DNA from: Basfia succiniciproducens
GTDB taxonomy: Bacteria > Pseudomonadota > Gammaproteobacteria > Enterobacterales > Pasteurellaceae
NCBI RefSeq assembly: GCF_011455875.1
Contig: NZ_CP015031.1
Coordinates: forward strand, 1,159,405 to 1,223,404
DNA length: 64,000 nt
Direction: 5' to 3'
Below are positions 11,590 to 56,295 of this stretch, one piece after another (positions within the stretch are counted from its first letter, which is position 1; each line of letters opens with the position of its first letter). Made by a program: the position numbers and the translations under genes. The notes under the pieces were generated by a model. The model saw nothing but the letters and a program-made list of their open reading frames with translations. It was not told the DNA's origin and did no database searches.

Positions 11590-12178
11590 ATCCCCCTCAG
11601 TCACTGCGTGACAGCTCCCCCGGCTTCGTGGGGGAGCGAACATTTTTTGCGTATTTCGATAGCGATAACATTATTTCAGTCCGTTCCCTCCCCCACAAAG
11701 TTGGGGGAGGGACCTGAAAGCCGGTGGGGAAAATTCCTTGCCCCCTCAGTCACTACGTGACAGCTCCCCCGGCCTCGTGGGGGAGCGAACATTTTTTGCG
11801 TATTTCGATAACGATAACATTATTTCAGTCCGTTCCCTCCTCCACAAAGTTGGGGGAGGTGCCTGAAAGCCGGTGGGGAAAATTCCTTGCCCCCTCAGTC
11901 ACTGCGTGACAGCTCCCCCGGCCTCGTGGGGGAGCGAACATTTTTTGCGTATTTCGATAACGATAACATTATTTCAGTCCGTTCCCTCCCCCACAAAGTT
12001 GGGGGAGGTGCCTGAAAGCCGGTGGGGAAAATTCCTTGCCCCCTCAGTCACTGCGTGACAGCTCCCCCGGCCTCGTGGGGGAGCGAACATTTTTGCGTAT
12101 TTCGATAACGATAACATTATTTCAGTCCGTTCCCTCCCCCACAAAGTTGGGGGGAGGTGCCTGAAAGGCGGAGGGGGT
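11590..12178. repeat. four-copy 149-bp tandem repeat array, hairpin rich
   Basis: This fills most of the 698-bp gap between pepA and ald. Units begin CCCCCTCAGTCACT at 11592, 11741, 11890 and 12039, a period of exactly 149 bp, and differ by only a few bases. Each holds two strong hairpins: CTCCCCCGGCCTCGTGGGGGAG, and CCTCCCCCACAAAGTTGGGGGAGG with one to two changes per copy. A low-GC middle (GCGTATTTCGATAACGATAA) lies between them. The last copy ends in GGTGCCTGAAAGGCGGAGGGGG. The short open frames across it repeat with the array period and are not genes. The module is shared, in inverse orientation, with the array at 41570-43372. Confidence 0.95.
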
Positions 12179-12262
12179 GGGATTTCAAGACATGAGCCAC
12201 TTTACATGTTATGCGACGGCTATCCCACTAAAAAAACGGAAATTTCCACCGCACTTTTGCCG

Positions 12263-34820: not shown

Positions 34821-34965
34821 TGTTAATTTGTATGATTTAGTGTAGGACTGAAAATAATTCTATCGGCTTTCTGAATGTAATAAACAGACCCTAATATAGT
34901 GAATTTTATTCAATATAAAAATAATTTATGGTTTTGCTAAGAAAAAGAATCTTTGATGAGAATAA

Positions 34966-35042
34966 TGGCGGAACGGACGGGACTCGAACCCGCGACCCCC
35001 TGCGTGACAGGCAGGTATTCTAACCAGCTGAACTACCGCTCC
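34966..35042 (-). tRNA. tRNA-Asp (anticodon GTC), second of pair
   Basis: 77 nt from GGAGCGGTAGTTCAGC to encoded CCA. The anticodon stem-loop is CCTGC, CTGTCAC, GCAGG, giving GTC. The T-arm contains GGTTCGAGTCC. Position 5 of the acceptor stem is C paired with G. Confidence 0.96.
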
Positions 35043-35055
35043 GTATTAGAATAAT

Positions 35056-35132
35056 TGGCGGAATGGACGGGACTCGAACCCGCGACCCCCTGCGTGACAG
35101 GCAGGTATTCTAACCAGCTGAACTACCACTCC
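35056..35132 (-). tRNA. tRNA-Asp (anticodon GTC), first of pair
   Basis: 77 nt and otherwise identical to the copy 13 bp downstream, except that pair 5-68 of the acceptor stem is T-A instead of C-G, a compensatory double change. Both are transcribed leftward from the promoter at 35148-35176. Confidence 0.96.
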
Positions 35133-35147
35133 GCACAGGTGAGGCAA

Positions 35148-41568: not shown

Positions 41569-41700
41569 TCGCCTTGTCGCTACCATGTGCAACCCTCTGA
41601 AGTCACGCCGTAGCCTACGATTTCCGCATAAATATAACATTATTTTCGCGCCCACCTTTACGGAAGGAGCTGTTGCGTAGCGACTGAGTGTAGTGGTCAA

Positions 41701-42486
41701 CTAATTTAACAGTCTCCGATAAGTTGTTTTTGCTAAAATCGGAGATAGACCTTGATTATAGCTATGTGGGCGAATGTGATTATAATACATCACATATTCT
41801 CTCACATCATTTACAGCACTTTCAAAATCACTATAACCACCTTTCAGCATCCATTCATATTTAAAACTTCGAAACCAACGCTCCACCGGCGCATTGTCCC
41901 AACAGTTACCACGACGGCTCATACTTTGTGTAAGCCCATGTTTCTTAACTGAATCAGTAAAGATTTCACTGCCATAAATACTACCTTGGTCTGAATGGAA
42001 CAACATTCGCTCCGTGCGTTCAATATTCAGCATCGCATGATTCAGTGCATCTTTAACCAGCTCACTATCATGATAGCGACTTAGCTTCCAACCGACGACT
42101 TGACGATTTAATAAATTAATTACCACTGCTAAATAGCACCATATCCCATTGATTTTTATATAGGTCGTGTCACCACATAGCACGGTCGTTTGGCTATCAG
42201 GCGTAAATTCTCGACTTAGTATATTCTCAAAAACTTGACTGTTTCCTTTACTAGGATTGCGCCATTTTTGCGGTTGCTTACTAAATAATCCTTGCTTATT
42301 CATTAACTTACGAATTAAATACAACCCCACAAAAATACCTTTCTCTTTCAAATGCGATTGAATCGTTCGTTTGCCTGCTGAACTTCGGCTTGCATCAAAA
42401 ATTGCCTTGATTTCAACGGCTAAAGCTGTGTGTTTCGCTGGCTTTTTGGCTGTGCGCAAATGGGCGTAGTAAGCACTTTCAGACAC
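41701..42486 (-). CDS. IS3-family transposase OrfB (DDE catalytic part)
   Basis: Catalytic integrase-like domain. The 261-residue frame from GTG 42486 shows LCGDTTYIKINGIW (first Asp), FHSDQGSIYGS (second Asp) and PVERWFRSFKYEW (Glu), a DD(35)E triad, and ends in IRPHSYNQGLSP. The same frame stays open upstream to the slippery site at 42582-42588, so the working protein is most likely an OrfAB fusion. The TAG stop lies within the terminal inverted repeat. Confidence 0.93.
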   Translation of the reverse strand: MSESAYYAHLRTAKKPAKHTALAVEIKAIFDASRSSAGKRTIQSHLKEKGIFVGLYLIRKLMNKQGLFSKQPQKWRNPSKGNSQVFENILSREFTPDSQTTVLCGDTTYIKINGIWCYLAVVINLLNRQVVGWKLSRYHDSELVKDALNHAMLNIERTERMLFHSDQGSIYGSEIFTDSVKKHGLTQSMSRRGNCWDNAPVERWFRSFKYEWMLKGGYSDFESAVNDVREYVMYYNHIRPHSYNQGLSPILAKTTYRRLLN

Positions 42487-42524
42487 GCTAAATAGCTCAC
42501 ATAACCGGTTGATTCCTCGCGATT

Positions 42525-42839
42525 TTAACGTCGTAATGACTTGGTATTTTTGTTTTCGAGTGACATTAAAATCGCTGTAGCCTTTTTTAAAATGGCCTTA
42601 TCTTCTTCAAGTTCTTTAATACGATTTTCAAGTTCTCGAATTCGTTGTTGTTCTGGGCTAATTGGCTTTGAACCAGCTAAAACGTAACCTTGTTGCTCCG
42701 CTTGAACTTGACTTATCCAGCGACGAAGTGCTGTTTCACCCACACCTAACTCTCGGCAAGCTTGAGAAACTGAATATCCTCGTTCAGTCACTAATTTTAC
42801 TGCTTCAGCTTTATATTCTGCGCTAAATGTTCTTCTCAT
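42525..42839 (-). CDS. IS3-family transposase OrfA (helix-turn-helix part)
   Basis: 104-residue DNA-binding half: MRRTFSAEYKAEAVKLV, helix-turn-helix around YSVSQACRELGVGETALRRWI, then a leucine-zipper-like stretch (RIRELENRIKELEEDKAILKKA). Alone it usually represses transposition. A -1 slip at A AAA AAG (42582-42588) in ILKKA leads into the OrfB frame. Confidence 0.93.
   Translation of the reverse strand: MRRTFSAEYKAEAVKLVTERGYSVSQACRELGVGETALRRWISQVQAEQQGYVLAGSKPISPEQQRIRELENRIKELEEDKAILKKATAILMSLENKNTKSLRR
42582..42588 (-). promoter_or_regulatory. programmed -1 frameshift site of the IS
   Basis: On the minus strand the heptamer A AAA AAG sits in phase with orfA codons TTA AAA AAG. The -1 frame continues GGC TAC AGC GAT without a stop into orfB. 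This is the usual heptamer of IS150/IS3-type elements. Confidence 0.88.
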
Positions 42840-42970
42840 AATATTTCCTCATTTGTGATGTTATTTTATCACTTATTGAGGACTGCGGAATTAGTCTACC
42901 ACTACAGAGGGGGGTATTTTCCCACTCCGCCTTTCAGGCACCTCCCCCGACTTCGCGGGGGAGGGAAAGT

Positions 42971-43052
42971 AACGTTTCGCACCTTCGCCGCTTGGCGCTA
43001 TCATGTCACAACCCTCTGAAGTCACGCCGTAGCCTAGGGTTTCCGCATAAAT
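42971..43052. pseudogene. 82-bp fabB-derived segment in repeat unit 2
   Basis: Matches fabB positions 55461-55542 over 82 bp with no gap and about 8 differences, same strand orientation. The minus strand corresponds to codons about 252-279 of FabB. No longer an open gene (start, ends and context missing). Confidence 0.9.
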
Positions 43053-43166
43053 GTAACATTATTTTCGCTCCCACCTTTACGGGGGGAGCTGTTGCGTAGC
43101 GACTGAGGGGGTATTTTCCCCCTCCGCCTTTCAGGCACCTCCCCCGACTTCGCGGGGGAGGGAAGT

Positions 43167-43248
43167 AACGTTTCGTAACTTTGCCGCTTGGCGCTATCAT
43201 GTCACAACCCTCTGAAGTCACGCCGTAGCCTAGGGTTTCCGCATAAAT
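43167..43248. pseudogene. 82-bp fabB-derived segment in repeat unit 3
   Basis: Second full-length copy of the same 82 bp. It shares most of the changes of unit 2 (such as CCTAGGGTTT for CCTACGATTT), so the units were amplified after capture. Confidence 0.9.
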
Positions 43249-43405
43249 GTAACATTATTTTCGCTCCCACCTTTATGGGGGGAGCTGTCGCGTAGCGACT
43301 GAGGGGGGTATTTTCCCACTCCGCCTTTCAGGCCCATCTCCCGACTTCGCGGGGGAGGGCACTACTGTCATAATTATAAATGATGAACTGTTAGCCTATT
43401 TTTAT

Positions 43406-55074: not shown

Positions 55075-56295
55075 TTATTTAGCGTAACGTTTGAACACTA
55101 ATGTAGCGTTCGTACCGCCGAAACCAAAGCTGTTTGACATCACGGTTTGTAAACCTGCATTTTCTTTTGTTTCGGTAACGATATTTAAACCTTCGGCCTG
55201 CTCGTCTAATGTTTCGATGTTAATGCTTGGGGCGATAAAGTCGTTGTGTAACATTAATAACGTATAAATCGCTTCGTGCGCACCAGCCGCACCTAACGAG
55301 TGACCTGTCATGGATTTTGTTGAAGAAATTGCCGGTTTGGCTTCACCAAATACATTTCTGATTGCGCCTAATTCTTTCACGTCACCAACCGGTGTTGAAG
55401 TACCGTGAACGTTGATATAGTCGATCGGCGTATCAATATTCGCCATCGCTTGTTTCATGCAACGTTCCGCACCTTCGCCGCTTGGCGCTACCATGTCGTA
55501 ACCGTCTGAAGTCGCGCCGTAGCCTACGATTTCCGCATAAATTTTTGCACCGCGGGCAAGAGCGTGTTCTAATTCTTCAACAACAACAACCGCACCGCCG
55601 CCGGCAATAACGAAACCGTCACGATCCGCATCATAAGCGCGAGACGCTTTTTCCGGGGTTTCATTATATTTGGTTGAAACGGCACCCATTGCATCGAATT
55701 GTGCCGCTCCTTCCCAGGATAATTCTTCCGCACCGCCTGCGAAAACAATATCTTGTTTACCTAATTGAATTAACTCAAAGGCATTACCGATACAATGTGC
55801 CGAAGTTGCACAAGCGGAACTGATAGAATAGTTAACGCCTTTAATTTTGAACGGAGTTGCCAAACAAGCGGAAACACTTGAAGACATGGTTTTAGTTACC
55901 GCATAAGGACCAATTGCTTTAACACCACGGGAACCGCGTGCCGCATCGGCCGCTTTCACCTGATAATGCGCCGAACCGATACCGGCACCGATAACAAGAC
56001 CTGTACGCTCATTAGAAACCTGATCTTCGCTAAGACCTGCATCTTCAATAGCTTCTTTCATTGACAGGTAGGCATAAGCGGCGGCATCACCCATAAAACG
56101 ATAAATTTTACGATCAATTAATTCGGCAGGATTTAACTTAACTGTTCCGGCGACATGGCTACGCATACCCATTTCTACAAAACTCGGTACGATTTCAATT
56201 CCTGATTTACCTGCTTTTAAAGAAGCTAAAACTTCTTCTTTATTATTACCGATGCTTGAAATTACACCAAAACCTGTAATCACTGCTCTTTTCAT
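55075..56295 (-). CDS. fabB: 3-oxoacyl-ACP synthase I FabB
   Basis: Condensing enzyme for fatty-acid elongation, needed for unsaturated chains. The 406-residue product matches E. coli FabB (406) closely: [18 protein letters not shown], nucleophile Cys in [16 protein letters not shown], His in [11 protein letters not shown] and [12 protein letters not shown], ending [14 protein letters not shown]. It is type I rather than FabF by length and by CATSAH. mnmC diverges, as in E. coli. Positions 55461-55542 (about codons 252-279) are the parent of the 82-bp segments in the array at 41.6-43.4 kb. Confidence 0.96.

Follow-up and report, generated by a model that had tools for sequence, protein, structure and literature searches.

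Intrastrand triplex repeats are a known kind of sequence in bacteria. In the parts of Holder et al. (2015) drawn on here (PMC4666352), the class II motif (ITxF) unites within a single strand, in this order, a pyrimidine arm, a purine arm and a third strand of purines running antiparallel; it folds in vitro, with no protection in vivo, it is G/C-rich, repeated, present in many bacteria and tied to genome instability, and the search rule allowed loops of 1-6 nt. In the excerpted text of PMC3733652, GTAG REPs, BIMEs and REPINs with RAYT show short palindromic modules, inverted pairs, linkers and arrays, mostly intergenic, and CGTC REPs (dRS3-like) are palindromic, without known transposase, found in several phyla and frequent in alphaproteobacteria. 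According to the same excerpt, CGTC REPs have a single stem of 8-9 bp, almost always with A-T pairs first, a loop of 4-5 and a CCA tail. The CIR repeats of Caulobacter are named in the excerpt of PMC10969869.

The repeats described here were found in a window, the whole stretch of 64,000 nucleotides of Basfia succiniciproducens that was analysed; positions outside it refer to the complete genome, one contig of 2,253,194 bases, and are preceded by C1. Their modules resemble the ITxF motif of Holder et al. (2015), as far as the text drawn on describes it, in the three strands on one strand, the G/C richness, the repetition, the occurrence in many bacteria and the tie to genome instability. They differ from it in that the second loop is a hairpin of ~11-25 nt, so the hairpin-looped form should escape a search with loops of 1-6 nt, and in that the evidence for the modules is covariation, whereas that motif was folded in vitro. 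A pair code with T.C-G, present in these modules, is not noted in the same parts of that paper (PMC4666352). The modules share with GTAG REPs the features listed above, but they have no GTAG at the stem foot, the hairpins coming after CTC-M, and none lies beside 20 Y1_Tnp loci. Identity with CGTC REPs, as the excerpt of PMC3733652 characterises them, was rejected: the modules share the general traits of that class, but they have two hairpins and a mirror strand, and stem 2 is (S)CTCCCC..GGGGAG(S'). Like MITEs, the elements are small and dispersed, have inverted ends and no coding capacity; they may differ from MITEs in that no target duplication was seen by eye and no parent transposon was found among the ORFs chosen between modules. 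A literature search by module sequence words gave no related paper among the matches listed. As far as searches of the open-licence literature show, the hairpin-looped form, its three-state coupling and its spread are new, and other names are possible elsewhere.

Module plan and the array behind pepA

Head modules and reverse-complemented tail modules show the same plan, [CCCCTC-M]-[hairpin 1]-A-[S-CTCCCC..GGGGAG-S'], with CCCCCTC-M in this genome. The third strand, CCCCTC, mirrors the CTCCCC arm of hairpin 2 and is not complementary to it. The loop linking them is hairpin 1 plus one base, and most copies in this genome are an inverted pair of modules.

Array 1 (11592..12177, + strand), located by tandem-repeat and repeat-spacing search, contains four head-insert-tail units of 149 bp (11592-11740, 11741-11889, 11890-12038 and 12039-12177) and is flanked by pepA and an aldehyde dehydrogenase gene, the latter convergent. 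TRF gives a period of 149 bp, 3.9 copies and 97% matches (11592-12176), and the repeat search a unit spacing of 149, once 148, which bears out the four-copy array behind pepA reported in the earlier note. The first head module (11592..11637, + strand; M=A, S=G) is made up of the third strand (11592-11599), hairpin 1 (11600-11612), the A at 11613 and hairpin 2 (11614-11637); the further heads have M at 11748, 11897 and 12046. It is followed in the first unit by the pepA-type insert of 46 nt (11638..11683, + strand) and by a tail module in inverse orientation to the head (11684..11730, - strand; M=C, S=C), M of the four tails being at 11723, 11872, 12021 and 12170. Tails 1-3 share an altered (derived) third strand and the last tail has the intact one, which fits amplification of an inner unit; the array would have grown by replication slippage or unequal exchange of the head-insert-tail unit. 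At 34959-35133 the window also contains a tandem duplication of 90 bp carrying two tRNA genes.

The fabB-containing array and its IS3 element

Array 2 (42907..43359, - strand) consists of 197-bp units with head and tail modules as in array 1, the heads with M at 43104 and 43300 and the tails with M at 42928, 43125 and 43322. An IS3-family element (41689..42906, - strand), which is not repeat material, is inserted into the array and is a later guest; on its far side there is a truncated copy (41573..41688, - strand) with a head M at 41685. The fabB sequence attributed earlier to this unit was recovered: in a genome search with the unit, 82 nt correspond to nt 754-835 of the fabB coding sequence at 90% identity. 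This piece is found at 42971..43052 (- strand) and 43167-43248, and truncated at 41573-41633; the source stretch (55461..55542, - strand) is in the fabB gene (55075-56295). There are three untruncated inserts, two in the window and one at C1:1741204-1741294, and all three (85-90% identity) have the same end points, 754 and 835, which shows descent from one capture, followed by amplification; the truncated insert covers nt 754-815. The short neighbour copy at C1:1741040-1741160 shows no fabB match above chance words and is joined, by eye, at AACGTT, a word on both insert sides there, and is thus the empty form or a deletion product. The fabB piece may have entered by one template switch, with AACGTT flanking both sides.

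The IS3-family element has 11 full-length genome copies, five of which abut or interrupt this repeat family (window 41689-42906; C1:986842-988059, 1377175-1378392, 1400102-1401319 and 1473362-1474579). The repeat family occupies well under 1% of the genome, and the element may target these repeat structures. At least two more IS3 copies (L623 and L633) lie tens of bases from a different motif, CCCCTCTTT..AAAGAGGGG then GGGGAGATTT, which by eye resembles a short-loop triplex motif.

Distribution in the genome and inserts

Used as genome query, the 149-bp unit gave 46 matches, among them the modules of array 2 (tail, 55 nt at 84%, twice; head, 30 nt at 90% and 87%), and the 197-bp unit gave 38, the tail modules of array 1 included. 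Each unit thus recovers the modules of the other array, and both arrays belong to one family, as had been claimed; the sequence common to the two units is ~85 nt plus spacer, so the proposed figure of about 100 bp was slightly generous in length. The head word CAGTCRCTNCGYGACAGCTCCC occurs at 36 sites and the tail word GGGGGAGGTGCCTGAAAG at 24 (at most 3 mismatches each), against 0 sites for the backwards control words in the same 2,253,194 bases, and the module words are therefore not too common by chance. Family copies are spread over 18 genome blocks, mostly intergenic, which agrees with the view that this is not a plain satellite.

The pepA-type insert is present in 20 copies at 11 loci (alignments of at least 100 nt across the insert, 78-100% identity), and a 21st long match, at C1:1741045 with 67% identity, has a different insert. 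About six or seven insert classes between modules were counted by eye, one of them at C1:1400015/1473188; head-to-head inverted elements, also by eye, are at C1:1389757, 1378393, 980977 and 1224946. Common modules with different inserts were therefore found as proposed, although most copies carry one insert. Source genes were sought for four other cargoes (609 nt pooled, one partial), and in the genome only their own copies and the family matched, with the sole exception of one 28-nt match at C1:717036. The suggestion of an element that picks up host DNA is thus borne out for one event, the fabB capture. At C1:1437455-1437793 there are two adjacent single elements, each with the same TTTGAATAATCGGATTTTTC stretch in front, which looks like a joint duplication of element and flank.

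The word AAGTGCGGT, which we take to be the Pasteurellaceae uptake signal, occurs 52 times in the window and lies within 100 bp of 8 of the 18 element blocks (e.g. window 12230-12240), with 2.9 expected from the window density; intergenic placement may explain this excess. For an empty-site comparison the same-genus genome was too distant, being only 72% identical over the matching part of one locus.

Mirror covariation between the third strand and hairpin 2

The letters M and S follow a coupling rule: M is A where S is G, C where S is C and T where S is T, and S=A is nearly absent. In this genome M/S is A/G in all 36 heads, and among the 24 tails it is C/C in 21 and T/C in three; the code fits at 8/8 positions in 32 of the 36 heads and 10 of the 24 tails. 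With a finder that set no mirror condition but required the arm to be rich in pyrimidines, 346 distinct spacer-A modules were obtained. Position 1 is coupled in 333 of them, against a mean of 188 and a maximum of 214 of 346 when M was shuffled within identical-arm groups (2000 shuffles). The mutual information between third strand and arm over positions 1-7 averages 0.371 along the diagonal and 0.053 elsewhere; a large off-diagonal value, third 6 with arm 4 (0.53), is owing to one sub-family, and in the whole set third positions 2, 5 and 6 each have a better partner than the mirror one. With CTTCCC arms, the third strand mostly carries A (or T) opposite in the mirror, the two commonest third strands making up 44 and 6 of 58, and with CTCCCT arms it carries T at the corresponding place. 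The 146 finds in which another base is the spacer cannot serve as a clean control, since coupling is present in 70 and the fit reaches 5-6 of 6 positions in 74.

In the scan of phage-like contigs the pattern was restricted to hairpin 2 and the 3' end of hairpin 1, and the upstream strand was read freely. Among the matches listed, 117 of 166 distinct sites have a perfect hairpin 1 (the other 49 were dropped), with M/S/S' A/G/C in 80, C/C/G in 36 and T/C/G in one; all viral loci, among the matches listed, give A/G/C 80, C/C/G 39 and T/C/G 1 of 120. When the search was anchored on a hairpin 1 ending in GGC, 51 of 107 sites were dropped for the same reason, and the remaining 56 show M/S as C/C in 48, A/G in six, and T/C and C/G in one each. 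Pooled and deduplicated, 335 of 353 modules are coupled and 18 uncoupled, counts that are not independent, the modules being related by descent. All three couplings were found with each of six hairpin 1 sequences.

Before the S=T-anchored scan the triplet code had been set as G.G-C, T.C-G and A.A-T, the last from one to three modules. That scan, with M free and a complete listing, gave 155 distinct modules with hairpin 1, after exclusion of 12 without a perfect hairpin 1 and five too close to an end; M is T in 153, G in one and C in one. They carry 22 different hairpin 1 sequences, 94 of them having one in common; as many are close relatives, they enlarge a class already hinted at and are not 155 independent events. 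The S=A scan gave two stretches in the collection, and a perfect hairpin 1 is missing from both; this is what one would expect if an A-T closing pair had no good triplet.

Spread in other genomes and phage-like contigs

The GTDB contig scan, in which CCCCTC was fixed so that only M and S were free to mix, gave at least 119 stretches. The listed matches belong to Alphaproteobacteria, Clostridia, Bifidobacterium, Planctomycetota, Chloroflexota, Bacteroidota, Riflebacteria, Kiritimatiellae and others, and many of them are metagenome bins. The listed loci contain 137 distinct modules, with M/S/S' A/G/C in 66, C/C/G in 64, T/T/T in two and five single types. Within Pseudomonadota a similar pattern was positive in 15 of 398 genomes, this one included, and the controls gave 0; one genome shows 77 sites. 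Coupling was found at 48 of 50 listed foreign Pseudomonadota sites, and both mixed sites are in the 77-site genome (two of the 10 listed there). The head word is present in 10 of 140 genomes of the window's own family, and the one further genome of the same genus lacks it.

In other genomes of the family the pair is placed, by eye, third strand to third strand. Among neighbours within 400 bp, 23 of 32 pairs at the listed GTDB loci are third-facing and seven hairpin 2-facing; on phage-like contigs, among the matches listed, 41 of 56 are direct and 12 third-facing. Inverted pairs are common and not the rule everywhere. Several modules on phage-like contigs are interspersed among structural genes, those for portal and capsid included. 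Single contigs of this kind contain 13 modules (L318, 10 kb) and eight modules (L344, 14 kb).

Triplex reading and alternative explanations

Direct or inverted repeats arise from copying errors, and mirror repeats do not. For a protein that reads duplex DNA we know of no evident reason for mirror symmetry; its established cause, to our knowledge, is a third strand, and for this reason the module is read as a triplex. Judged from sequence, the arrays are probably a non-autonomous REP-like repeat whose modules fold as an intrastrand purine-motif triplex with a hairpin as linking loop. A single G-rich strand would fold hairpin 2 (CTCCCC..GGGGAG), the distal GAGGGG would be laid antiparallel in its major groove to give a purine-motif (class II) triplex, and hairpin 1 plus one T would form the linking loop at the triplex foot. 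T.C-G is an antiparallel triplet over a C-G pair. Among the 2404 triplet cells read on the G-rich strand, 2075 are G.G-C (1615), A.A-T (383) or T.A-T (77), a further 184, at the foot, are T.C-G, 105 are A.G-C and 40 are others. The A.G-C cells are mismatches under the antiparallel set G.G-C, A.A-T and T.A-T given in the excerpt of PMC10609763, and count against the triplex reading. The folds predicted for the 149-bp unit by a secondary-structure program blind to triplexes are stable (z roughly -3.4 to -4.4). Hairpins 1 and 2 are present in them on the C-rich strand, and in the tail-head stretch on either strand; when the entire unit is folded as the G-rich strand, the program favours head-tail pairing over local hairpins, which also counts against a local triplex. 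Rfam gave no family at threshold for the modules of the window, where only three tRNAs were found, and on eight loci (E up to 1) only tRNA, suhB and PreQ1 were above threshold, all other matches being below it.

If this were an ordinary REP/BIME family mobilised by a Y1 transposase of RAYT type, and the coupling went back to two or three ancient founder lineages of modules that never recombined, the BIME-like look of the inverted pairs, tandem arrays and linkers would be accounted for; the kinship of the modules does inflate the counts. Y1_Tnp (RAYT-like) genes are present in nine of the 10 other genomes tested, and this genome has three (C1:1033714, 612474 and 244703; L074, L075 and L076). 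Each of these, however, sits by eye among other repeats, its own GTAG-tagged palindromes (GTAGGGTGGG.. or GTAGGGACAGA..), and the 20 Y1_Tnp loci, with 1.5 kb flanks, have no module, the one regex match (L240) being unlike a module, so that mobilisation by RAYT was rejected. The coupling, moreover, extends over several columns and different arms, and for six hairpin 1 sequences all three of its forms are found; we consider the founder-effect explanation unlikely. More improbable still are a structure of the C-rich strand (an RNA or a triplex of the pyrimidine motif) and an element acting at transcript level, for example a terminator. C+.G-C and T.A-T would also accommodate C/C and T/T, but A/G (184 of 346 modules) and A over T (77 cells) would require A.C-G and A.A-T, which are outside the parallel set, and the pyrimidine motif on the other strand would leave the A/G and A/T couplings unexplained. 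A terminator would suit the GTDB loci, where, in a crude ORF model, sites are found between tandem (39) and convergent (17) genes more than divergent ones (3), but phage-like contigs show no deficit of divergent gaps (17) relative to convergent ones (11), and the modules of the window match no Rfam family at threshold; as the same model puts 100 of 171 phage-like-contig modules inside an ORF, gene context was used weakly.

The two modules of an element are inverted and the third strands of head and tail are roughly complementary, as they would be if third strands paired both modules into a long cruciform and the mirror symmetry were a low-complexity by-product. In third-facing pairs, however, both modules keep their own code at 32 of 38 arm-differing positions, with identical (pairing-capable) third strands at four of the 38, and the coupling is far above that of the shuffles within identical-arm groups; we give the cruciform very little credence.

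Under the triplex reading, the structure would be kept by selection and would form where DNA is single-stranded for a time, as on the lagging strand or during uptake or transposition. DNA uptake delivers single-stranded DNA. The folded single strand could lead to stalling and slippage and in this way to tandem growth, and the copies would disperse most likely by a trans-acting enzyme that acts on the single-stranded structure, a candidate mechanism for which the searches turned up no enzyme. A transposase was looked for between modules: 89 chosen, mostly longer ORFs from 74 intervals, the IS3 ORF of this genome among them, were compared with Pfam, and the 25 of 54 families listed include no recurring transposase; they correspond to host and phage structural genes (Phage_capsid 3, P22_portal 3, Aminotran_1_2 2). 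More tentatively, and with some doubt on our part, the modules might be trans-phylum non-autonomous elements recognised and spread via a single-stranded DNA triplex, their triplet code (G.G-C, A.A-T, T.A-T, T.C-G) being selected in genomes and phages and the structure read by a putative enzyme.

The role of natural DNA triplexes inside cells is a long-standing question, and it was through evidence like compensatory change that RNA structures were established. Here, compensatory change of a third strand is found in a DNA repeat of several phyla and of phage-like contigs. The coupled letter changes are a rare sign that evolution may preserve a three-stranded DNA structure, and the repeat family gives exact swap-and-restore mutants, and a mobiliser to look for.
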